In this document: piece by piece, positions 6,365 to 20,217 of the stretch
Layout of the letters: the number at the start of each line of letters is the position of its first letter
How positions within the stretch are numbered: the first letter of the stretch is position 1
Source: a virus
Virus record (IMG/VR): IMGVR_UViG_3300027906_000201
Location: 1 to 20,239 of that record
Reading direction: 5' to 3' (one strand)
DNA: 20,239 nt
The notes under the pieces: generated by a model
What the model was told of the DNA's origin: nothing
What the model saw: only the letters and a program-made list of their open reading frames with translations
The model's database searches: none
Made by a program: the position numbers and the translations under genes

Positions 6365-7173
6365 AACTTGTAGATGCCCCCGGTAAAGTCAACACCGGAC
6401 GGCCACTCAAACCATTCGGGATAGTTGTCCACCATACCGCTTCCAACCGCAACGCAGACCCCGACAACGTGGTTGCCTTATGTGTGCGAGGAGTCAACAA
6501 GGTACCCGGACCTCTATACAACTACCTCATAAAACGTGATGGTACCATTGTCAAGTTGACTGCGGAGAACGTGAAAGCTAACCACGCTGGTCGTGGCTTA
6601 CAGTCAGTGTTGACACGGATGCAGCAGAATAATCCTGTTACTGGTGACGCTGCTAGTCCCGGTAAGATCAGCGCCAACTCTCGTTTAATAGGTGTTTCAA
6701 TTATTAATGACGGGTTAGGGGAAGATGTGCCCGAGGCACAGATGGACGCACTCGTAGATTTGTGCGCCTTTCTGTGCGACGGACATAAATGGAATCCCGA
6801 TTGTGCCGTGATAGGTCACAAAGAATGGACTTCACGTAAGGTAGATCCCTCATTCTCAATGAGTGAACTTCGAGGGATGATCCACCGTCGCATGGTTACA
6901 AGCGTTCCTGTAATGACTTTACCTAAAGAACCAGAGGACGGACTTGTTCCGTTCCCCGGAACGCTACGCAAAGGCTCACGCAGCCAAGCAGTTGTTCATG
7001 TTCAACGAGTAGTAGGAGCTTTAGCCGACGGAATATACGGGCGTGGTACACTCGCCAAAGTAAAACAATGGCAGCGAGCTAAAGGGCTTGTTGCAGATGG
7101 CGTAGTTGGTCCAAAGACTTGGGCGGCTATGCAGATACGGAGACAAGAAGTTGTTCAACCAGCGTTTTATTAA
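6361..7173 (+). CDS. Endolysin: N-acetylmuramoyl-L-alanine amidase with peptidoglycan-binding domain
   Basis: This enzyme cuts the amide bond between the glycan and the stem peptide at the end of infection. Residues about 15-165 form an amidase_2/PGRP domain: GIVVHHTAS supplies H24 or H25, NHAG at 74-77 and YNYLIKRDGTI at 53-63 are typical, and GHKEW (H153) with KVDP (D162) completes a zinc site. A Pro-rich linker leads to a PG_binding_1 domain (about 203-262) with LRKGSRSQAVVHVQRVVG, DGIYGRGT and DGVVGPKTW. The 270-residue length fits a two-domain endolysin. No signal peptide is seen, so release would depend on the holin encoded next. The start is ATG 6361 in an ATGA overlap with the preceding gene. 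Confidence 0.93.
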   Translation: MKLVDAPGKVNTGRPLKPFGIVVHHTASNRNADPDNVVALCVRGVNKVPGPLYNYLIKRDGTIVKLTAENVKANHAGRGLQSVLTRMQQNNPVTGDAASPGKISANSRLIGVSIINDGLGEDVPEAQMDALVDLCAFLCDGHKWNPDCAVIGHKEWTSRKVDPSFSMSELRGMIHRRMVTSVPVMTLPKEPEDGLVPFPGTLRKGSRSQAVVHVQRVVGALADGIYGRGTLAKVKQWQRAKGLVADGVVGPKTWAAMQIRRQEVVQPAFY

Positions 7174-7354
7174 AGACAGTTTAGAACGTGGAATCTCTAC
7201 CTTTGCTCAGGCATGGGCCGCAGCTATGGCTGTACCCGGACCTGACTGGGCTGATTCCTTTAAGATCGCCGGAGTTGCGGCGCTTATCGCTATTGCCAAG
7301 GCTGTTGCTGCCAGAAAAGTGGGAGATCCAGAAACAGCATCGGTTACTAGCTAG
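7151..7354 (+). CDS. Holin, r1t-like
   Basis: I place the start at TTG 7151, which has a GGAG element 8 bases upstream. A TTG at 7106 is also in frame but lies deep within the endolysin gene. The 67-residue product begins MFNQRFIKDSLERGISTFAQ, continues into a hydrophobic segment AWAAAMAVPGPDW, and has a second hydrophobic helix KIAGVAALIAIAKAVAA before the basic/acidic tail RKVGDPETASVTS. This two-helix layout, with the RFIKDSLERGISTFAQAW start and the RKVGDP tail, matches holins of the phage r1t type, which are frequent in actinophages. It would sit in the cell membrane and release the endolysin encoded just upstream. The 23-base overlap with that gene suggests coordinated translation. Confidence 0.78.
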   Translation: MFNQRFIKDSLERGISTFAQAWAAAMAVPGPDWADSFKIAGVAALIAIAKAVAARKVGDPETASVTS

Positions 7355-12816: not shown

Positions 12817-13224
12817 CTAGCTAACCGGCTTGCCCCGAGTTCTGTACTGTTCTTTTAGCTCTCTCATTCTTTGAGCGTTTTCTTCTATAGACAAAGATTC
12901 TTCCCTAGCCAAAGTTAGAGCTTTGGTTGTAGCAGAGATGGAAGCAATGTTAGTGGGATGTCTTTGCATTTCCTCCTGCTGTTCTTTAACTCTCCTTAAT
13001 GCTGTTTCAAATGCCGCTTCACTAAAGCTCCAAGTGACATTCAATGCGTTATAGCATTCTTCCAAGGTCCAGCCATGACTGTGTGCCATTTCAACGACGT
13101 GACGTATCTTCATTGGTTTCGCCAGTGGCTTTTTGTCTGTGTCTTTCCACCACTGGTTCAGCATCTGTGTAACGTCAGTGAAAGCTGGTGCTTGTGATGC
13201 TCTCAGTTTGATTAGTTCGCCCAT
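12817..13224 (-). CDS. Hypothetical helical protein (135 residues), replication-module context
   Basis: ATG 13224 has a strong AAGGAG 7 bases upstream and lies 50 bases inside the upstream nuclease gene. The product is mostly helical. A first part (FTDVTQMLNQWWKDTDKKPL, then IRHVVEMAHSHGWTLEECYNALNVTW, given here by its core HVVEMAHSHGWTLEECYNAL) looks like a small helical DNA-binding or replisome-type domain. A second part (EAAFETALRRVKEQQEEMQR and EENAQRMRELKEQYRTRGKP) is a charged coiled coil. I do not recognise a family. Being coupled to a resolvase, SSB and annealase, it probably serves replication or recombination; that is inference from position. Confidence 0.68.
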   Translation of the reverse strand: MGELIKLRASQAPAFTDVTQMLNQWWKDTDKKPLAKPMKIRHVVEMAHSHGWTLEECYNALNVTWSFSEAAFETALRRVKEQQEEMQRHPTNIASISATTKALTLAREESLSIEENAQRMRELKEQYRTRGKPVS

Positions 13225-13564
13225 CTATTCTCTCCTTAATGAGTTGTGCGAAATTATGTAATTCCATTACTACATAAGCTCCACCGGTACCGAAGTTCCG
13301 GCGCTTCACTATAGCGGCAGCGAAGTCGGCCTCTGCATTTACTCTTTCTTGTTCAGTTTCTTTCATTATTTGGGATAAAGATGAGAGGGCATCCTTCCTG
13401 TTTTTGCATTCGAACACAAATTCAGGAAGGTCGTGACACTTGATGTCCCCCACATCTTTAGTCCCAACAAGGGGCAGGCGCATAAACTCATGCGCCGTGT
13501 AGCTTTGGAGATACCGAACACATTCGGTTTCCCAAGCTGTCCCCTTCTGTTTGGATTTACTCAA
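13175..13564 (-). CDS. PD-(D/E)XK Holliday-junction-resolvase-like nuclease
   Basis: The product (129 residues) shows the PD-(D/E)XK core in order: KGTAWETECVRYLQ with E12, GTKDVGDI with D40, and FVFECKN with E52 and K54. KGTAWE and GDI...ECKN are the usual signature of the archaeal/phage Hjc-like resolvases found in actinophages. Expected function is cutting four-way junctions made by recombination or by replication before packaging. A helix with QERVNAEADFAAAIVKRRNF and a strand AYVVMELHNFAQL follow, as in the family. The start is TTG 13564, since no ATG precedes residue 28 and the TTG has GGAG about 10 bases upstream. It overlaps the upstream gene by 8 bases and the downstream gene by 50. 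Confidence 0.85.
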   Translation of the reverse strand: MSKSKQKGTAWETECVRYLQSYTAHEFMRLPLVGTKDVGDIKCHDLPEFVFECKNRKDALSSLSQIMKETEQERVNAEADFAAAIVKRRNFGTGGAYVVMELHNFAQLIKERIDGRTNQTESITSTSFH

Positions 13565-13829
13565 AGTCAGTGATCTCCGGCGGATGTTCTATATCCCCAT
13601 CGGTCATTTCCATATATTGTTCCAACGCTGATTGGAACATAAAGGAAAGTGCTTGCATCATTTTATTGTTGGGGTCCATACCGTCGCCTGCTGGATGACG
13701 TTCGAAAGCGTCTATCAATTTACAAGCATGGAACTCGACCTCGTTAGCAAAGTCTTTAGGAACAACGAACGACATGATCGTTAAATTGTCATTTAAGACT
13801 GGCACAATAACGCTATGTTCTTCTTCCAT
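13557..13829 (-). CDS. Hypothetical acidic protein (90 residues)
   Basis: ATG 13829 overlaps the SSB stop codon by one base. The product is acidic, with a beta start (HSVIVPVLNDNLTIMSFVVP) and a helical middle (EFHACKLIDAFERH; NNKMMQALSFMFQSALEQYM), and ends in DGDIEHPPEITDFE. The family is not recognised and there is no metal site or active site. It sits between the SSB and the resolvase in the recombination cassette and overlaps both. A partner or modulator of those proteins is possible, but nothing in the sequence shows it. Confidence 0.68.
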   Translation of the reverse strand: MEEEHSVIVPVLNDNLTIMSFVVPKDFANEVEFHACKLIDAFERHPAGDGMDPNNKMMQALSFMFQSALEQYMEMTDGDIEHPPEITDFE

Positions 13830-14221
13830 TAAAACGGTTCCTCATCTGGGTCGAACGCTGCTTGGACAGTTTCAACAGCTTGTGCAGCCACTCTATCACT
13901 TGGTCCTCCCTTCGGATGCCAGCGATATGAGGGACCACCTTCGTCTGCGTAGAGACACAGCTTGCTTCGCTTTTCGCCTTCTTTGCTTTCCCAATTATCT
14001 TGTTTCATGCGTCCGATAAACATCACACGTGAACCTTTGGGTACCTCTGCTATACGTTCAGCGAGATCACCAAAGCATTTCACATCAAACCAGTGAGTTT
14101 CTTTTGTGTCATCACGGCCAGTTGTTACGGCTACAGGAACAGTAAGGAATGCGTTACCTGACTTGGCGTATCGCAACACCAAATCGGTACCAACATTACC
14201 TGCTATGGATATATTACTCAT
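13829..14221 (-). CDS. ssb: Single-stranded DNA-binding protein with acidic tail (SSB copy 1)
   Basis: The start is ATG 14221 (MSNISIAGNVG), with AGGAG 9 bases upstream. The frame is open farther upstream, but the extra residues are not SSB-like. The 130-residue protein has an OB-fold with the family pattern: ISIAGNVGTDLVLRY, FLTVPVAVTTG, THWFDVKCFGDLAERIAEVP, KGSRVMFIGRMKQDNW and LCLYADEGGPSYRW. The last residues, FDPDEEPF, match the acidic SSB tip that binds replication and repair partners. It coats single-stranded DNA for the annealase and nuclease encoded next to it. It overlaps the annealase gene by 8 bases. A second, tailless SSB is encoded at 19238-19564. Confidence 0.92.
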   Translation of the reverse strand: MSNISIAGNVGTDLVLRYAKSGNAFLTVPVAVTTGRDDTKETHWFDVKCFGDLAERIAEVPKGSRVMFIGRMKQDNWESKEGEKRSKLCLYADEGGPSYRWHPKGGPSDRVAAQAVETVQAAFDPDEEPF

Positions 14222-14639
14222 TGCTTTCTTCTCCTTCTCTCTTTTCGAGAATGTCTGCGAGAACATAGTTCCCGTCATGTTTATGCCAGAGATGCAGACC
14301 TAAGCCCAACCTCATCGCACATCTTTTAATACCGTCAGAAGCACAAGCCTTCAGTCGTGCTCCGTCTGTCTTCCAATTGTTCGGATTTTCGCATTCACCA
14401 ACCTCTTGTATCGAGGTAGTTCGTCCATCAACATCAACAGTAAGAGTGCAGAGGCAACCAGTGAGAGTACCATCAGCATCCCTAACAAGAGTATCAATAG
14501 CAAAATCATATGGACCTACAATCCCTAGAAGGAATTGCGACACAATACCGTGTGGTACATATGCTGCTGCAAACTTTCCCGGTTTAGTTTCAATGAACTT
14601 CTCCGAGAATGGTGTTGCTAATTTATTTAACTGACTCAT
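14214..14639 (-). CDS. Rad52-like single-strand annealing protein
   Basis: The 141-residue product has the compact Rad52/Rad22-like pattern known from actinophage recombinases: MSQLNKLATPFSEKFIETK, VSQFLLGIVGPYDFAIDTLV, a strand pair LTGCLCTLTVDVDGRTTSI, EVGECENPNNWKTDG, and the diagnostic helix ARLKACASDGIKRCAMRLGL, then GLHLW. In Rad52 relatives this last region forms the DNA-binding groove. It would anneal complementary strands, working with the nuclease encoded upstream and the SSB downstream. ATG 14639 has AAAGGAG 5 bases upstream. It overlaps the nuclease gene by 17 bases and the SSB gene by 8, so the three are coupled. Confidence 0.83.
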   Translation of the reverse strand: MSQLNKLATPFSEKFIETKPGKFAAAYVPHGIVSQFLLGIVGPYDFAIDTLVRDADGTLTGCLCTLTVDVDGRTTSIQEVGECENPNNWKTDGARLKACASDGIKRCAMRLGLGLHLWHKHDGNYVLADILEKREGEESNE

Positions 14640-15438
14640 CTTTCTCCTTTATCACTAAATCGATAATGTCTAACATGTCTACGTCGCCGTGCTGTTCGCA
14701 GATGTCGTAATGCGGACAGTAGTTACATTCCCAAGGGACTTCTGTCTCCCAATAAGAACGTAAACCTTCCGGTATGACACCAGTATTCAGATAGGTTTTA
14801 GCCATCCGAGCGTGCTCTTCTAAGAAATAAGTAGTAGCAACAGAGATAGACGTTTCACTTTCATCGAATGATTCGTGTATGTCATACAACCACTCAACCA
14901 TGTCACCAGCACGAGCGCTATCTTTCCAACGAGAAGGCGTCGCATCAGTACACACATACACAAGATGGATCTTGTTAAGACCTAGACCCATTGCATAGGC
15001 ACAGGCTTGGAACAGGTGCTCTTCCTTCGGGCCTTCGTTTCTTGCTTTACGAAACCCATAGTTACGCATTGTCTTAATTTCTAAGACAGTTCCGAAGTCA
15101 TGTGGTGATGCATAATAAACTCCATCAGCATGACCTGAAGTCATACAGTTAGAGATACTGACAGGCACCTCGCATTCGAAGTCTGGATTAGTTAAGAACG
15201 CTTGCTGTATGTGGTCATGCATAGTGTTGCCAATCTCTCTAGCAACAAACCCATTGACCGCATTCTCACCAGCATCAATCCGAGGCACACCCATCCCATC
15301 GAACACCTGTTTCCGTTCACACGTGGTGATGTTAGATATTCTTAGGAACGACCCGTCTGCTGTTGGCTTGTTCTCTGGGTGACGTATATGTTCACGGAGA
15401 GCTAGCTCCGCAGGACCTCTCCCTATTTCGTACTGCAT
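14623..15438 (-). CDS. Cas4/RecB-like PD-(D/E)XK exonuclease with Fe-S cysteines
   Basis: This 271-residue protein has GHADGV (H103, D105), VLEIKTM (E120, K122) and HLFQACAYAMG (Q144), the RecB/Cas4-type nuclease motifs. Four cysteines fit an iron-sulfur cluster: C40 in TTCERK near the N-terminus, and C238, C241 and C247 in WECNYCPHYDICEQH near the C-terminus (the C-xn-C-x2-C-x5-C layout of Cas4 and AddB). It should degrade one strand at DNA ends and leave single strands for the Rad52-like protein. No cas1 or CRISPR repeats are present, so a stand-alone phage recombination nuclease is the better reading. ATG 15438 is preceded by AAAGGGAAACT. Confidence 0.85.
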   Translation of the reverse strand: MQYEIGRGPAELALREHIRHPENKPTADGSFLRISNITTCERKQVFDGMGVPRIDAGENAVNGFVAREIGNTMHDHIQQAFLTNPDFECEVPVSISNCMTSGHADGVYYASPHDFGTVLEIKTMRNYGFRKARNEGPKEEHLFQACAYAMGLGLNKIHLVYVCTDATPSRWKDSARAGDMVEWLYDIHESFDESETSISVATTYFLEEHARMAKTYLNTGVIPEGLRSYWETEVPWECNYCPHYDICEQHGDVDMLDIIDLVIKEKDESVK

Positions 15439-15464
15439 TAGTTTCCCTTTCTACGTGCAGTCTA

Positions 15465-15671
15465 TCAGTTTCCTCGGGCCTCATCAATGCGGCGATCCGC
15501 ATCATTCGATGCAGCAACCTCAGCCATATATTCTGCACAACAATCACAATCCTCTATCGGTTTCTCCATCCAGAAATGGTCGTGATCTTCCTTGCTACAG
15601 AATCTACATAGCCAACCATTATCGGGTGGTTCCATCGCATCGTACTGGGCTTGCGCCATTTCAAAACTCAT
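15465..15671 (-). CDS. Small CxxC protein (68 residues)
   Basis: ATG 15671 has AAAGGAGAGAAG upstream, one of the strongest ribosome sites here. The product is acidic, with WLCRFCSKEDHDHFW followed by EDCDCCAEYMAEV. The two Cys pairs (C22/C25 and C42/C44 or C45, with nearby His) suggest a small zinc site. The rest is helical and charged. I do not recognise a family. It lies just upstream of the recombination nuclease and is probably cotranscribed with it. Confidence 0.68.
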   Translation of the reverse strand: MSFEMAQAQYDAMEPPDNGWLCRFCSKEDHDHFWMEKPIEDCDCCAEYMAEVAASNDADRRIDEARGN

Positions 15672-15682
15672 ACTTCTCTCCT

Positions 15683-16054
15683 TTAGTCTTTCCTGCTTTC
15701 GTAATAAAAATCAGGCGTAGTCCGCCACATATATTGCGGACCAGCATGACGCTCTTTTCTTTCAGATAACCGAGTCTCTTGCCTACGACATGATTCGCAA
15801 ACAACAGGTTCAATAACCCCTGTTCTCTGTGCTTGTTTCATTAACGGGCCAAGCAAACGAGCATTGTCTAAGACAATTCCCATCCACTTCAACTCGGCAT
15901 GAACTTGATCGGTGGTCCATGAATACCACGGTCCCCGTCTAGCAGCTACTCGTTCTATTGCTTTTTTAGCAGCCAACTTCTGGGATGGACGAGCCGATCT
16001 CTCGACTCGTGCCATCCCTAAGTCACGCTGCGTTATGCCTTCAGACTCCGACAT
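15683..16054 (-). CDS. Winged-helix-like DNA-binding protein (123 residues)
   Basis: The middle of this basic protein looks like a winged helix: RGPWYSWTTDQVHAELKWMG, then NARLLGPLMKQAQRTGVIEP, then a wing-like stretch with VVCESCRRQETR and GPQYMWRTT. The pattern of a D-x-R-x-LGPxx(K/R)xAxRxGxIEP helix followed by a GPxxxWR strand recurs in small DNA-binding proteins of actinophages. A regulatory or replication-linked role is likely but unproven. The N-terminal 35 residues are basic and probably disordered. Its ATG (16054) lies 14 bases inside the upstream gene and lacks a strong ribosome site; ATG 16015 is an alternative start. Confidence 0.7.
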   Translation of the reverse strand: MSESEGITQRDLGMARVERSARPSQKLAAKKAIERVAARRGPWYSWTTDQVHAELKWMGIVLDNARLLGPLMKQAQRTGVIEPVVCESCRRQETRLSERKERHAGPQYMWRTTPDFYYESRKD

Positions 16055-16310
16055 AGCTGCGAGCCATGTTGTACAAGGCTTTCGCTACTGCGTTAATGAA
16101 GTCTTCATCATCAGGATCAACCGATGGGCTTTCCTCCATGTGCTCTCTTATGTAGTAACCGATGTCATTGCTCAATGTGTCAGCGACAATGGATTCAACT
16201 TCCCCACTGTCTCGGATCACATCAGCACAGATGTCACCTACCATGTCGCAGAATCCACCATCATTAGCGAACTCTCCAACTTCTATTTCTACTGTTGCTT
16301 CTATACTCAT
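16041..16310 (-). CDS. Hypothetical acidic protein (89 residues)
   Basis: ATG 16310 is preceded by AAAAGGAGAAAGAAA, a strong site. The product is very acidic (Asp/Glu well above Lys/Arg): MSIEATVEIEVGEFANDGGF, ICADVIRDSGEVESIVAD, IGYYIREHMEESPSVDPDDE and a helical end AVAKALYNMARSYVG. The family is not recognised. High negative charge is common in phage proteins that mimic DNA or block host nucleic-acid enzymes, but that is speculation here. It is the first gene after the hairpin at 16348-16385 and overlaps the winged-helix gene by 14 bases. Confidence 0.68.
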   Translation of the reverse strand: MSIEATVEIEVGEFANDGGFCDMVGDICADVIRDSGEVESIVADTLSNDIGYYIREHMEESPSVDPDDEDFINAVAKALYNMARSYVGV

Positions 16311-16347
16311 TTTCTTTCTCCTTTTATTTTTATTTAATGAGATTTCA

Positions 16348-16385
16348 CTAGGGGAGAGGACGGGAGGGTATGTCCTCTCCCCTAG
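16348..16385 (-). terminator. Perfect 14-bp hairpin after the DUF932 gene
   Basis: CTAGGGGAGAGGAC and GTCCTCTCCCCTAG pair without mismatch around a 10-base loop. On the minus strand it begins 4 bases after the DUF932 stop. It has no U-tract on that strand; ATTTTTAG follows on the plus strand. The likely role is 3'-end formation or an RNA boundary between the DUF932 gene and the next gene. Confidence 0.68.
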
Positions 16386-16389
16386 ATTT

Positions 16390-17394
16390 TTAGTTAGCTA
16401 CCAGAATCTTGGCAGCTTTCTCAGTCATTGGTAGCTTCCCGAACATTACGTTGGCTTGATGCCTACGATCACGTTCAAGGCTGCTATTCACACCCTTAAC
16501 TGATTTATCTTTCTGCTCCCATGCTTGAACAGCCATGAGTGCACCCCACTTGGTGTTACGCACACCAGCTATATCCTCGTCACGACGAAACCTGCGATTC
16601 AAATCTGATTTCACATGTCGCCAACGAGTTAACTGATTCAAATAACCCTGTTGTGATTGGGTATTGCTATTCCACCACGGCTCTGTTGGTCCAGCACCAA
16701 TTAGCTGAACGACCAACTGATTCCATTGTTCATCAACAAATTCTTCATTAGCCATGCGTTCAATTTCTTGCTTGTATGTTTCATGTCTTTCATAGCTATC
16801 ACACAATGCTTGAACAGCTTCTTGCATCATGCCTTGGGGATCGCCCATCTTCTTAAACTTGAAGATAGCGTTCTTATCCAAGATGTTTAGCTTGAAAGTA
16901 TTGGCACACACCACAGCCCTTGCAGACTGAGTAGCAATCAACGGAATACTTTTGTCATGCCCGTTACCGATATTGAACATCGATTCAACTGTTGACCAAC
17001 CCGGAATCTCTATATCTTCCTTGAACTTCAGAGACACATAACCAACAGCACCATTATCGTAGGTACCAACTGATTGAATAGCCTCTACCAGTCCAGTGTC
17101 GATAAGCATTCCAGTTAAGTCATCAGCCATAAACCGATGTTGAACTATCTGATATCGATTACTTACTTCGGCATGAGCATATGGATAGTTGACCATCTTC
17201 AAGACCTGTCGGTCCGAAAGTAATTCAGCTACTCCATGATGCTCAATAAGTATGGGTGTACGTTCGACTTCAGACCAGTCAAAAGCCTCACGGGCTTTCT
17301 CCCAATCGATAGGTCCAACGGTACCCATCCCATGCCAAGCAGCCTTACGGTATAAGGCATGTTCAGCATCGAGATTAGTCATTCGATGTGACAT
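16390..17394 (-). CDS. DUF932 / TIGR03299 phage-plasmid protein
   Basis: The 334-residue product has features of the DUF932 family: an N-terminal AAWHGMGT, WEKAREAFDWSEVERTPI, NRYQIVQHRFMADDLTGML, and GYVSLKFKEDIEI with a later IGNGHDKSIPLIA and ARAVVCANTF. Members are found in many phages and plasmids. Their biochemistry is not settled, although single-strand DNA or replication roles have been proposed. ATG 17394 has AAGGAGG 4 bases upstream; a second ATG at residue 5 could also serve. It overlaps the upstream 92-residue gene by 20 bases, and a perfect hairpin follows its stop. The length is normal for the family. Confidence 0.86.
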   Translation of the reverse strand: MSHRMTNLDAEHALYRKAAWHGMGTVGPIDWEKAREAFDWSEVERTPILIEHHGVAELLSDRQVLKMVNYPYAHAEVSNRYQIVQHRFMADDLTGMLIDTGLVEAIQSVGTYDNGAVGYVSLKFKEDIEIPGWSTVESMFNIGNGHDKSIPLIATQSARAVVCANTFKLNILDKNAIFKFKKMGDPQGMMQEAVQALCDSYERHETYKQEIERMANEEFVDEQWNQLVVQLIGAGPTEPWWNSNTQSQQGYLNQLTRWRHVKSDLNRRFRRDEDIAGVRNTKWGALMAVQAWEQKDKSVKGVNSSLERDRRHQANVMFGKLPMTEKAAKILVAN

Positions 17395-17653
17395 TTTCCT
17401 CCTTTATTTCTGATTCAGTATTTATCTTTTCCAATAAACGGATCATCTCCGCATCAGATATGTCATGGATATGAACATTGCCAATAGCTATTGACCACGT
17501 TCCATCCGAAAAAGAGTTCGCCCATATGACGCTCTGTTTTTCCGGGTTAAGGAATGCGGTTGCTGTTAGCACCCGTTCATTTTTGAATGTGTACTCACGG
17601 CTTTCTTCGCACACATCATTATTAACAGTTGTATTGACTGTTATTTTTCTCAT
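17375..17653 (-). CDS. Hypothetical 92-residue protein
   Basis: ATG 17653 has AAAGGGAAACC upstream. The product starts with a beta-rich half (MRKITVNTTVNN, ESREYTFKNERVLTATAFLN, VIWANSFSDGTWSIAIGNV) and ends in an acidic helix (DISDAEMIRLLEKI). The family is not recognised. It is the first gene downstream of the promoter-like element at 17747-17755 and the 12-bp hairpin at 17680-17725, and it is coupled to the DUF932 gene by a 20-base overlap. Pairing with DUF932 suggests a shared task, but nothing in the sequence defines it. Confidence 0.67.
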   Translation of the reverse strand: MRKITVNTTVNNDVCEESREYTFKNERVLTATAFLNPEKQSVIWANSFSDGTWSIAIGNVHIHDISDAEMIRLLEKINTESEIKEENVTSND

Positions 17654-17679
17654 GGTTTCCCTTTCATTATGAGATCTTC

Positions 17680-17725
17680 GGGAGAGGCTGAGGACTTAGC
17701 TGAATAGCACGTTTCAGCCTCTCCC
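17680..17725 (-). repeat. 12-bp hairpin in a likely 5' leader
   Basis: GGGAGAGGCTGA and TCAGCCTCTCCC pair perfectly around a 22-base loop. On the minus strand it falls between the promoter-like element (17747-17755) and the ribosome site of the 92-residue gene, so it would sit near the 5' end of that mRNA. It could protect the message or control its translation. Confidence 0.6.
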
Positions 17726-17746
17726 TTTCTTGCGACCTTTCAGTAT

Positions 17747-17755
17747 ATTGTACCA
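17747..17755 (-). promoter_or_regulatory. Extended -10 promoter candidate
   Basis: The minus strand reads TGGTACAAT, an extended -10 (TGn plus TACAAT, 5 of 6 to the consensus). No good -35 is placed 16-18 bases upstream, which is usual for extended -10 promoters. Transcription would start near 17740 and run into the 92-residue gene and DUF932. Confidence 0.45.
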
Positions 17756-17758
17756 GCT

Positions 17759-17792
17759 ATAAACACAATAACCCCTTTGGGCCAGTGTTTAT
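17759..17792 (-). promoter_or_regulatory. Inverted repeat beside the -10, possible operator or terminator
   Basis: ATAAACAC and GTGTTTAT are perfect 8-base inverted arms separated by 18 bases, with a small CCC/GGG stem in the loop. The repeat spans the end of the 71-residue gene and the -35 area of the candidate promoter. It could be a repressor site or a hairpin ending the upstream message. Confidence 0.42.
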
Positions 17793-18004
17793 GCGGGATT
17801 AAGCGTCCGAAAGATCACGTTCTCTTCGCAACAATAATCGTCACACCAATGCTTTTCTAAGATCTTGCTGCGGCTATCCATCAAGCAATCCCAACACATT
17901 GGGTGGGCGTCATAGTCGCCATCGCCTTCATAGTAATAAGTATCTTCAGGCAAAATGTAACCATCACAATAATTGCATGGATGCCAGCCTTCAGGCCCAC
18001 TCAT
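17789..18004 (-). CDS. Cys-rich zinc-finger-like mini-protein (71 residues)
   Basis: ATG 18004 overlaps the upstream stop (ATGA). The product has three Cys groups: HPCNYCDGYI (C10, C13), HPMCWDCLMDS (C37, C40) and HWCDDYCCEENV (C54, C58, C59). Two CxxC pairs plus nearby His fit one zinc-binding treble-clef or ribbon fold, with the C-terminal group a possible second site. The middle is acidic and Tyr-rich (EDTYYYEGDGDYDAH). Proteins with CxxC-x(20-25)-CxxC spacing in phages are often annotated only as hypothetical. It is the last gene before the promoter region at 17747-17792. Confidence 0.7.
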   Translation of the reverse strand: MSGPEGWHPCNYCDGYILPEDTYYYEGDGDYDAHPMCWDCLMDSRSKILEKHWCDDYCCEENVIFRTLNPA

Positions 18005-18180
18005 TCTTCTGTTAGCAATTCGTCGAGTTCAGCTATACGATTTAACTCTCCGAAAAACTTATCAAGCTCATCCAGAAACATATAAGCATCTGCGTCATCT
18101 AAAACTGCATATGCCACAGTACAGATAGCTTCTGATATTCCTTCGATAGCATTATCTAATTGTTTTTCACTTACTTCCAT
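18001..18180 (-). CDS. Small acidic helical protein (59 residues)
   Basis: ATG 18180 has a strong ribosome site (AAAGGAGAAATAAA). The frame runs 59 codons to a TGA at 18003-18001, where it overlaps the next start as ATGA. The product is acidic and almost entirely helical: MEVSEKQLDNAIEGISEAI, then CTVAYAVLDDADAYMFLDEL, then FFGELNRIAELDELLTEE. No family is recognised. Helical acidic proteins of this size can act as small inhibitors or adaptor subunits, but nothing specific shows here. The ribosome site and the coupled overlap make a real gene likely. Confidence 0.75.
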   Translation of the reverse strand: MEVSEKQLDNAIEGISEAICTVAYAVLDDADAYMFLDELDKFFGELNRIAELDELLTEE

Positions 18181-18192
18181 TTTATTTCTCCT

Positions 18193-18528
18193 TTATTTAT
18201 AGCGACCACACGTCCACAAATCCCAGCCATCACGAGTGTTCTCATGTATGTAATGAGCCATCCATGTTGACTGCACAATTTCGTAGCGTTTCGGCCAATG
18301 AACTTCGAACACATCACCCCAGTAATGTTCGTTTATTTGGAATAATCCATGATCGGCACCGTTATATGCCCGTGGATTATGCAACGACTCACACCACGCA
18401 ATGCTTAAAGCGCGAACACAATCATCCTGAAAGTATTCACACACAACCGGTGCAACTTCAGGGTTAGGTGGTTCATGGTTGATCGCAGCGAAGTCAAGTA
18501 TCGACCAGATCACCAACCAAAGATTCAT
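18193..18528 (-). CDS. Exported lysozyme/transglycosylase-like enzyme
   Basis: I place the start at ATG 18528, which overlaps the upstream stop as TGATG; a GTG one codon earlier is also in frame. The 111-residue product starts with a short hydrophobic segment (MNLWLVIWSILDFAAI), a likely export signal or anchor. It is followed by the core of an SLT/lysozyme-like fold: LSIAWCESLHNPRAYNG with catalytic E47, then DHGLFQINEHYW and WDLWTCGRYK. Four Cys (30, 37, 46, 107) could make disulfides outside the cytoplasm. It should cut the glycan strand of peptidoglycan. Its place in the early block, far from the amidase and holin, is unusual. Cell-wall remodelling or blocking of rival phages are possible roles. 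Confidence 0.8.
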   Translation of the reverse strand: MNLWLVIWSILDFAAINHEPPNPEVAPVVCEYFQDDCVRALSIAWCESLHNPRAYNGADHGLFQINEHYWGDVFEVHWPKRYEIVQSTWMAHYIHENTRDGWDLWTCGRYK

Positions 18529-18725
18529 CACATCTCTCTCGCTGCAAGGATTTGTTCTCTAGTAAATGCATCATGTTCCACCAAAGGAGTATCACGCTTA
18601 GTCCCTCTCTTATTTTTAGTAGCTCTATCTTCTTCACGATGAACACGCCAAGCCTCACGACACGGCGCACACCGGCAACCATTACTGTATTGATTAGCAG
18701 ATGGCTTCCCTTTACACTTCTTCAT
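18528..18725 (-). CDS. Small GCRCxxCR-type zinc protein (65 residues)
   Basis: The product starts MKKCKGKPSANQYSNGCRCAPCREAW (core NQYSNGCRCAPCREAW) with C4, C17, C19 and C22, then a basic helix (RVHREEDRATKNKRG) and REQILAAREM. The motif Y-x2-GCRCxxCRxA-x(n) recurs in short actinophage proteins, with an N-terminal (H/C)G(T/K)xxxY partner; the function is unknown. A zinc-bound, nucleic-acid-binding domain is the reasonable reading given the basic residues. It starts in the TGATG overlap with the upstream 90-residue gene and ends in another with the transglycosylase-like gene. Confidence 0.74.
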   Translation of the reverse strand: MKKCKGKPSANQYSNGCRCAPCREAWRVHREEDRATKNKRGTKRDTPLVEHDAFTREQILAAREM

Positions 18726-18997
18726 CAGAACGTACTCGTTCCAGCGATCACGTCACCAAGTTTGTCGGCATTACCGAACGCATCATCTAAGCGGATCTCT
18801 ATCTGACGAGCACGCTCCTGAGATTCCCGATACATATCATCCATCATCTCATCAAGATCATGTTCGATACGCAAAATCAGATCAGCAAGTTCCGGTTCAG
18901 CTTCGTGACCGATTGACTTACTGTTTTGTAATTCCCAAAGCTTGCCCTGAATGTAATTCAGAATCGCTTCAGCACTAACTAGCTTTCGGTGTCTCAT
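18725..18997 (-). CDS. Hypothetical coiled-coil protein (90 residues)
   Basis: ATG 18997 has AAAAGGAGATAATA upstream, a strong site. The product is helical and charged: LVSAEAILNYIQGKLWELQN, EPELADLILRIEHDLDEMMD, and a heptad-like stretch DMYRESQERARQIEIRLDDA. No active site or metal site is seen and no family is recognised. It is the first gene after the structured non-coding stretch at 19063-19228, and overlaps the next start by one base. Confidence 0.66.
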   Translation of the reverse strand: MRHRKLVSAEAILNYIQGKLWELQNSKSIGHEAEPELADLILRIEHDLDEMMDDMYRESQERARQIEIRLDDAFGNADKLGDVIAGTSTF

Positions 18998-19062
18998 TAT
19001 TATCTCCTTTTATTATGGGTGCGTCCTATTATGGATGCTGTTTTGATTTTACCTAATTGTTT

Positions 19063-19112
19063 AAGAGAAAGGTCCGGCTACCGACGAAATCCCGGTAGCC
19101 GAACCCTCTCTT
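19063..19112 (-). repeat. Long GC-rich hairpin in the 240-base gap
   Basis: AAGAGA...GGT.CCGGCTACCG pairs with CGGTAGCCG.ACC...TCTCTT, giving about 18 base pairs with a few mismatches and a 9-base loop. It follows the tailless SSB gene and precedes a run of small genes. It may be a 3'-end or processing hairpin. No U-tract follows on the minus strand. Confidence 0.6.
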
Positions 19113-19116
19113 TCTT

Positions 19117-19138
19117 GACGGAGGTCCATCGCTCCGTC
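19117..19138. repeat. Small hairpin GACGGAG/CTCCGTC
   Basis: A perfect 7-base stem with an 8-base loop lies 4 bases from the preceding hairpin. On the plus strand it is followed by CCTTTTG, but no plus-strand gene is nearby. It is probably part of the same structured element. Confidence 0.45.
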
Positions 19139-19155
19139 CCTTTTGTTATGAAGAC

Positions 19156-19228
19156 CGAGGGACTCCACAAGCCATGCAAAGCTATCTCGCATTTGGGCGG
19201 TAGCAGTCATCTTGTGAATCGTCCCTCG
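19156..19228 (-). ncRNA. Nested inverted repeat, candidate structured RNA
   Basis: CGAGGGAC (19156-19163) pairs with GTCCCTCG (19221-19228) and, inside it, CACAAG (19166-19171) with CTTGTG (19211-19216). The 39-base interior contains a further GCTATC/GGTAGC pairing (one G-U). Total length is 73 bases, tRNA-like in size, but no T-loop GTTCRA or proper D arm is present. It lies just 3' of the tailless SSB gene. The gap 18998-19237 holds no convincing gene and mainly these three hairpins. Confidence 0.42.
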
Positions 19229-19237
19229 ACTCCAGAT

Positions 19238-19564
19238 TTATGAGCGTGCTGACCAGCGTAGGCTGACGCCAGCTTCTTCAGCATATACAACGGTTCGGAA
19301 TTGCTTTACGCCTTCTTTGTCGCTGTATGTATCTTGCCTTAGGTGACCCTTAATGATGACTCGTGTACCTTTTGGTAATCGAGCCATCTCGTTAGCTTGC
19401 TCTTCGAAGAACTTAACATCGAACCAGCTAGTCTTAGGGTTTTCTTTTGTACCTGAACTTACCGCTATGGGCATGTTAAGGAATGGCTTACCTGAGTTTG
19501 CACCGTAGCGCAGTTCAGGGTCCTTTCCGTAATTACCACATATCGTGATAGTTGCATTTTCCAT
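19238..19564 (-). CDS. Second single-stranded DNA-binding protein, tailless (SSB copy 2)
   Basis: The start is ATG 19564 (MENATITICGNYG), in a TAATG overlap with the upstream gene and with AAAGGG about 6 bases before it; residues upstream in the open frame are not SSB-like. The 108-residue OB-fold aligns along its length with the SSB at 13829: ITICGNYGKDPELRY, FLNMPIAVSSGT, TSWFDVKFFEEQANEMARLP, KGTRVIIKGHLRQDTY, VVYAEEAGVSLRW. It stops right after the fold with SARS, so the linker and acidic tip are absent. Without the tip it should bind single-stranded DNA but not recruit SSB partners. Whether it forms mixed tetramers with copy 1 cannot be told. Confidence 0.88.
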   Translation of the reverse strand: MENATITICGNYGKDPELRYGANSGKPFLNMPIAVSSGTKENPKTSWFDVKFFEEQANEMARLPKGTRVIIKGHLRQDTYSDKEGVKQFRTVVYAEEAGVSLRWSARS

Positions 19565-19716
19565 TATTTTCCCTTTTCTATTGTTTTCCATTGCTGCCGA
19601 CGTTCGACTGCTAAGGTCCTGACCATTTTGTTCCACCGGTCAACTTGCGCCGGTGATCCAACACGGTTTAGCGGAATTGTTTTCCACTGAGAATTATTAA
19701 ATGCACTCCTAGACAT
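19564..19716 (-). CDS. Small basic protein (50 residues) coupled to SSB copy 2
   Basis: ATG 19716 has GAAAGGAGACAGA upstream, a strong site. The frame runs 50 codons and its stop overlaps the SSB start as TAATG. The product is basic and Trp-containing: MSRSAFNNSQWKTIPLNRVG, then SPAQVDRWNKMVRTLAVERR, then QQWKTIEKGK. The segment QWKTI occurs twice (residues 10-14 and 42-46). I know of no family. A helix rich in Arg next to an SSB gene suggests a nucleic-acid or SSB-associated role, but this is only inference. Confidence 0.74.
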   Translation of the reverse strand: MSRSAFNNSQWKTIPLNRVGSPAQVDRWNKMVRTLAVERRQQWKTIEKGK

Positions 19717-19728
19717 TTCTGTCTCCTT

Positions 19729-20217
19729 TCAACAACGTGACCATCCGCCACGTTCAGCTATCGCAGCCTCATCGTGAGCCTCACCAATTAAACTGGCGAA
19801 CTCAATATTCGGCTCCATTTTCATTGCCTCAGCCGCACCTGCACGAACCATTTCCAAGTTGACAAACAAGCCATCTTCATGGAACACATAAGCAAGCAAC
19901 CTGCCATACGGATCACGCTTACCATCTCCAATAGCCAACCAAATATCACTCCGGTCAACTAAACGAGCTAACAAGTCATGCGACTGAGTTGAATAACAGC
20001 TACCCAATTCAGGTGCATTTATCCCAATCAGCCGTATCGTTTCCGTAATACCATCTACTTCAGCTACGAAAGTATCTCCGTCTATTACACGTTCTACCTT
20101 CACTGAAGGATCAGGGTCACCCCCAATAGAGTTAGCTATAACAGCACCCACAATTATTAAGGTGGCTGCTGCTAGGGCTACTCTTATATTTCTCTGTTTT
20201 GCTGTAACCTTAACCAT
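19729..20217 (-). CDS. Exported thermonuclease (SNase family)
   Basis: This 162-residue protein has a basic N-terminus and a hydrophobic segment (about residues 13-31, VALAAATLIIVGAVIANSI), so it is probably secreted or membrane-anchored. The SNase OB-fold follows: VERVIDGDTF (D46, D48), IRLIGINAPE (R62, E70) and RDPYGRLLAYVF (R106), which correspond to the D19, D21, R35, E43 and R87 positions of staphylococcal nuclease. The D40 ligand is replaced by N67, which also occurs in some relatives. It would degrade DNA or RNA outside the cytoplasm, for instance host or competitor DNA. ATG 20217 follows AAGAAGGAAGAA. It is the most upstream minus-strand gene in the window. Confidence 0.88.
   Translation of the reverse strand: MVKVTAKQRNIRVALAAATLIIVGAVIANSIGGDPDPSVKVERVIDGDTFVAEVDGITETIRLIGINAPELGSCYSTQSHDLLARLVDRSDIWLAIGDGKRDPYGRLLAYVFHEDGLFVNLEMVRAGAAEAMKMEPNIEFASLIGEAHDEAAIAERGGWSRC

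Follow-up and report, generated by a model that had tools for sequence, protein, structure and literature searches.

Why does one phage carry two genes for single-stranded DNA-binding proteins (SSBs), of which only one encodes an acidic C-terminal tip? The genes lie in a marine phage fragment registered as IMGVR_UViG_3300027906_000201, and "the window" below means this whole virus record of 20,239 bases; the longest related contigs are about 36-38 kb. The two genes are as follows.

Positions 13829..14221, minus strand: SSB1, 130 aa, consisting of an OB fold, a short linker/helix and the acidic tip FDPDEEPF.
Positions 19238..19564, minus strand: SSB2, 108 aa, an OB fold only, ending LRWSARS.

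The original prediction, on the basis of motifs shared along the OB folds, had regarded the two as paralogs, and this view is upheld: the motifs are present as described, the proteins are 44% identical over 104 residues (E=4e-32), and both exceed the cut-offs of PF00436 (69.5 bits for SSB1 and 70.5 bits for SSB2; cut-off 26) and TIGR00621 (67.7 and 66.6 bits, respectively; cut-off 53.95). At the DNA level, ssb1 and ssb2 have in-register stretches of 17-43 nt that are 74-94% alike, at a spacing of 5334. AlphaFold2 models made from the window and locus sequences have the SSB OB fold in both cases (pLDDT 80.2 for SSB1 and 89.8 for SSB2), and the best solved-structure matches of both models include the SSBs of M. 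tuberculosis, M. smegmatis and S. coelicolor. When the proteins are aligned to solved SSBs, the residues corresponding to W54 and F60 of the E. coli protein are kept in both SSB1 and SSB2, and the W88 position is occupied by Trp in all SSB1 and by Tyr in all four known SSB2. Judging from these sequence features, both proteins probably bind ssDNA. The SSB1 and SSB2 groups differ by ten fixed substitutions and three likewise fixed inserted residues, and the ten substitutions could give SSB2 a different partner or DNA-binding mode, beyond the loss of the tail.

For SSB1, both the coordinates and the ending FDPDEEPF were confirmed. The acidic C-terminal tip ending in PF, by which a typical SSB is recognized, is found in SSB1 and likewise in all complete SSB1 proteins among the roughly 45 related viral contigs of marine origin; the pairwise omega values of SSB1 are similar to those of SSB2 (0.03-0.09), indicating purifying selection. 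The gene belongs to a recombination module whose order around ssb1 is common to related viral contigs; in the direction of transcription, it encodes a Cas4-like exonuclease, a Rad52/Erf-like annealase, SSB1, a 90-aa protein and a RusA-like resolvase. The neighbors with assigned families are listed here.

Positions 14623..15438, minus strand: Cas4-like exonuclease (phrog_1706, phrog_1990), conserved in order.
Positions 14214..14639, minus strand: Rad52/Erf-like single-strand annealing protein (phrog_1097, phrog_3290; Pfam Rad52_Rad22 just below its cut-off).
Positions 13175..13564, minus strand: PD-(D/E)XK / RusA-like resolvase, downstream of ssb1 (phrog_244, 86.5 bits; PF24608).

The annealase gene overlaps the start of ssb1 by 8 nt and directly precedes it in every relative covering the site, so that ssb1 has the position characteristic of HK620-like SSB-annealase pairs, beside an annealase gene. 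In the closest experimentally tested system, phage HK620, the SSB similarly has an acidic tip ending in PF and is encoded beside the annealase Sak4; its last six residues are required both for the binding of Sak4 to SSB-covered ssDNA and for the stimulation of annealing (PMC5928155). The HK620 system differs from the present one in that a single SSB has been described and in that Sak4 is RecA-like, whereas the annealase here is Rad52/Erf-like. By analogy with this system, the likeliest role of the SSB1 tip is to recruit the annealase of the phage itself, and not mainly host factors. It had originally been proposed that a recruiting SSB and a silent one balance the recruitment of host factors. 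Because both paralogs are conserved under purifying selection and the tip is present in one only, a division into a recruiting and a non-recruiting protein is still the simplest reading; the assignment of the tip mainly to host factors, however, is not supported, in view of the annealase gene preceding ssb1 and the HK620 precedent. The original alternative, that SSB2 blocks interactions of the host SSB, is speculative.

The host of the phage is probably actinobacterial, perhaps a member of Acidimicrobiia. One relative contig (L086) sits in an Acidimicrobiaceae metagenome bin; as an indication of the host this is weak, being based only on binning. The same bin includes a phage contig of more distant relationship (L097; G042:C121) with the annealase-SSB-nuclease order and a tailed SSB, and this is a second hint that phages of the Acidimicrobiaceae host group use such a module. 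Another contig of this bin (L095; G042:C111) encodes a different short phage-type SSB of 112 aa, which keeps the acidic tip DSDTEDEPPF and adjoins nuclease-like and annealase-like ORFs. Separately, the 59,966-bp record IMGVR_UViG_3300020476_000002 (L089-L091) apparently has genes for the major head protein and the amidase, as well as tail-side genes, in two sets; two related phages may have been joined in one chimeric assembly, or the record may represent a tandem pair.

We turn to SSB2, which had been described as stopping right after the fold at 19238-19564. This proved correct for the whole ortholog group: the four orthologs (105-110 aa, on four separate contigs) all end a few residues past the last tryptophan of the OB fold, none has the linker plus acidic C-terminal tip of a typical tailed SSB, and no tail remnant is present downstream of ssb2 in any frame in any of the four. 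Their pairwise omega of 0.03-0.09 indicates strong purifying selection and, together with the absence of the tail in 4/4 orthologs, argues that the tailless form itself has been maintained. An assembly artefact is ruled out by the same gene order on four separate contigs, and a recent truncation or pseudogene by the ortholog-wide taillessness and the low omega. Natural OB-only SSBs that occur beside a tailed SSB are known in Anabaena (Alr0088 and Alr7579), and these tailless proteins bind ssDNA (PMC3976300); they are chromosomal and cyanobacterial, whereas SSB2 is a phage accessory gene product. SSB2, too, would most likely bind ssDNA as an ordinary SSB core, recruiting no partners.

The ssb2 gene is located about 5 kb from ssb1 as the last gene of a row, SNase-orf50-ssb2, whose order is the same in the four carriers. 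The other elements of this row in the window are given below.

Positions 19729..20217, minus strand: staphylococcal-nuclease-like protein (SNase; PF00565, 48.8 bits) with a hydrophobic N-terminus, the first gene of the row.
Positions 19564..19716, minus strand: orf50, a 50-aa basic protein (pI 11.7), overlapping ssb2 by 1 nt in the window.
Positions 19063..19112, minus strand: a stem-loop after ssb2 (-36.8 kcal/mol, z -5.6), terminator-like without a clear U-run.

The gene orf50 adjoins ssb2 in 4/4 carriers, but the original view that ssb2 is coupled to a unique 50-residue gene had to be abandoned: relatives of orf50 with about 30% identity are present in three contigs lacking SSB2 (L018, L026 and L027), and two carriers (L004 and L005) have, instead of the 1-nt overlap, a spacer between orf50 and ssb2 with its own AGGAGG. 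An obligate coupling is thus ruled out. Hairpins comparable to that after ssb2, though differing in sequence, follow ssb2 in the other three carriers (L003, L004 and L005). A strong stem-loop (16346-16387, z -6.3) with little U-run on the minus strand also stands just after the gene of a DUF932 protein (16390-17394), which is present in nearly all relatives with 67-93% identity, and termination in this phage seems to rely on such hairpins lacking U-tracts. A scan for sigma-70 promoters gave fewer sites than expected by chance. In L005 (IMGVR_UViG_3300020379_000405), a run of stem-loops lies upstream of SNase, between a 377-aa gene and SNase (7064-7340); three of them have a common 25-nt repeat around CGTAACGCCG, found in L005 only among the fetched loci, and multiple terminators or a structured RNA are possible explanations of this run.

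Searches with exact peptides and alignment-based viral scans located SSB2 orthologs beyond the window on three contigs only, the latter scans adding none to those found by exact peptides. Among the 21 records that cover its site, the window included, SSB2 is present in 4 and absent in 17; it is an accessory gene, and it is therefore not needed for the ssb1 module. The relatives without SSB2 have other accessory genes at this site, mostly without database names. In the tree, the SSB2 sequences form one clade (100/99). It lies inside a viral lineage (96/81) to which every SSB1 also belongs, whereas the SSBs of the putative host family fall elsewhere. The question whether SSB2 arose by duplication or by separate acquisition could be answered in part by phylogeny. 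AU tests rejected both a recent duplication within the carriers, in which SSB2 would group with the carriers' own SSB1 (p=0.003), and capture from the putative host SSB (p=0.002); the two placements tested inside the SSB1 family, with its wider clade of 21 rows or with the L030/L031 group, were not rejected (p about 0.2), and SSB2 may branch either inside this family or just outside it. SSB2 therefore branched off long ago within the phage SSB family, and by identity it is closest to the SSB1s of the L030/L031 group (50-52%). It may be an ancient duplicate or an acquisition from a cousin phage. In L003 and L004, SSB1 is almost identical (dS 0.04) while SSB2 is not (dS 1.4), indicating that ssb1 and ssb2 have been exchanged independently.

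This history bears on a reading, in our judgment rather unlikely, in which SSB2 would be a redundant xenolog, obtained from a cousin phage and perhaps together with SNase and orf50, that adds SSB dosage only and has no special regulatory role. The placement of SSB2 in the same viral lineage with its affinity to the L030/L031 SSB1s, the row ending in a hairpin and the patchy presence would all accord with such an origin; that all four orthologs are tailless with low omega, so that this form has been maintained, speaks against a mere increase of dosage.

The tip of SSB1 also has a relation to the presence of SSB2. All 16 cellular SSB copies examined in the family of the L086 bin end in YDPNEEPF, and SSBs sampled from elsewhere in the class and phylum have other tips; the SSB1 tip closest to it is FDP[DG]EEPF, that of the four SSB2 carriers. 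This resemblance suggests that SSB1 could dock host SSB partners, too. The tip FDP[DG]EEPF occurs in 4/4 carriers and in 0/17 known non-carriers (Fisher p=2e-4, the carriers not being independent cases, because near ssb1 they form one clade together with L009). The tip and SSB2 may thus simply be co-inherited, and the likeness of carrier and host tips is confounded by common descent. A more elaborate proposal is a two-component system, in which SSB1, with its host-like tip, and SSB2, without a tail, would make up mixed coats or mixed tetramers; the ratio of the two would set the number of displayed tips and switch ssDNA between recombination and a hidden, protected state. We consider it quite improbable.

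Several defence systems are triggered by phage SSBs bound to ssDNA (PMC10732053), and SSB2 might accordingly be a spare counter-defence SSB that coats phage ssDNA without being recognized by SSB-sensing systems of the AbpAB, Hachiman, Nhi or Retron-Eco8 type. Its accessory and patchy occurrence, resembling that of anti-defence genes, and its divergence from SSB1 would fit such a role. Nevertheless, this host has no known defence system, the trigger in the T4 case is ssDNA-bound SSB with nothing showing that the tail is sensed, SSB1 is still made, and a PADLOC search with SSB1, SSB2 and orf50 gave no match, which rules these proteins out as members of known defence families; we hold the proposal to be very unlikely. 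Just as unlikely is a PriB-like adaptor, in which the tailless OB surface of SSB2 would contact one particular partner, for instance orf50 or a primosome protein of the host. PriB is itself a tailless SSB-type OB protein (PMC8509808), and the surface changes fixed between SSB2 and SSB1, as well as the adjacency of orf50 in all carriers, could be understood in this manner. SSB2 differs from PriB, however, in that it scores as a true SSB above the model cut-off and matches no PriB model among NCBIfam results up to E=1, and no helicase or primosome gene is seen nearby.

The reading that we prefer, with about even confidence, is that SSB1 is a recombination SSB whose tip recruits the phage annealase and that SSB2 coats ssDNA without recruiting. 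SSB1 would coat resected ssDNA, its acidic C-terminal tip would load the phage's own annealase, and docking of host SSB partners may be a secondary function of it. SSB2, an anciently diverged relative of SSB1 that would have lost the linker and tip, may shield or hold ssDNA and lower the density of tips along it, either alone or in mixed tetramers with SSB1; we infer this shielding or damping role from the features described above. Less favorable to this reading are the absence of SSB2 from 17 of the 21 records covering its site, the ten fixed substitutions, and the observation that no partner or regulatory link is visible between the two genes, which recombine independently.

Parts of this arrangement are already known: tailed phage SSBs beside annealases are common, and both cellular SSB paralog pairs and tailless SSBs have been described. 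The SsbA/SsbB proteins of S. pneumoniae (PMC3168475, PMC3128108) and S. aureus (PMC5945547) are likewise two paralogs per genome with different roles, but these are cellular pairs, while SSB2 does not derive from the putative host SSB, and pneumococcal SsbB still has its C-terminal end, the removal of which has been studied. In tblastn searches, the SSB2 query matched 997 phage records at one place each, and a generic SSB query matched 2355 places in 2350 phage records; the presence of two same-family SSBs in one phage therefore appears rare, although a second copy that has diverged strongly can escape tblastn and the true number of such phages may be higher. In the open-access literature, we found neither a phage described as having a conserved pair of tailed and tailless SSBs nor a direct two-SSB precedent; for Klebsiella phage phiKp_24, which has a gene named ssb1, no second annotated ssb was present in the 18 kb viewed.

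The dependence of SSB function on the number of tails appears to have been studied mainly with engineered E. coli SSB. A conserved natural pair of tailed and tailless proteins would offer a ready test of how far the job of SSB depends on the number of recruiting tails, and also of the possible ability of a phage to conceal its ssDNA from host factors and from defences that sense SSB.
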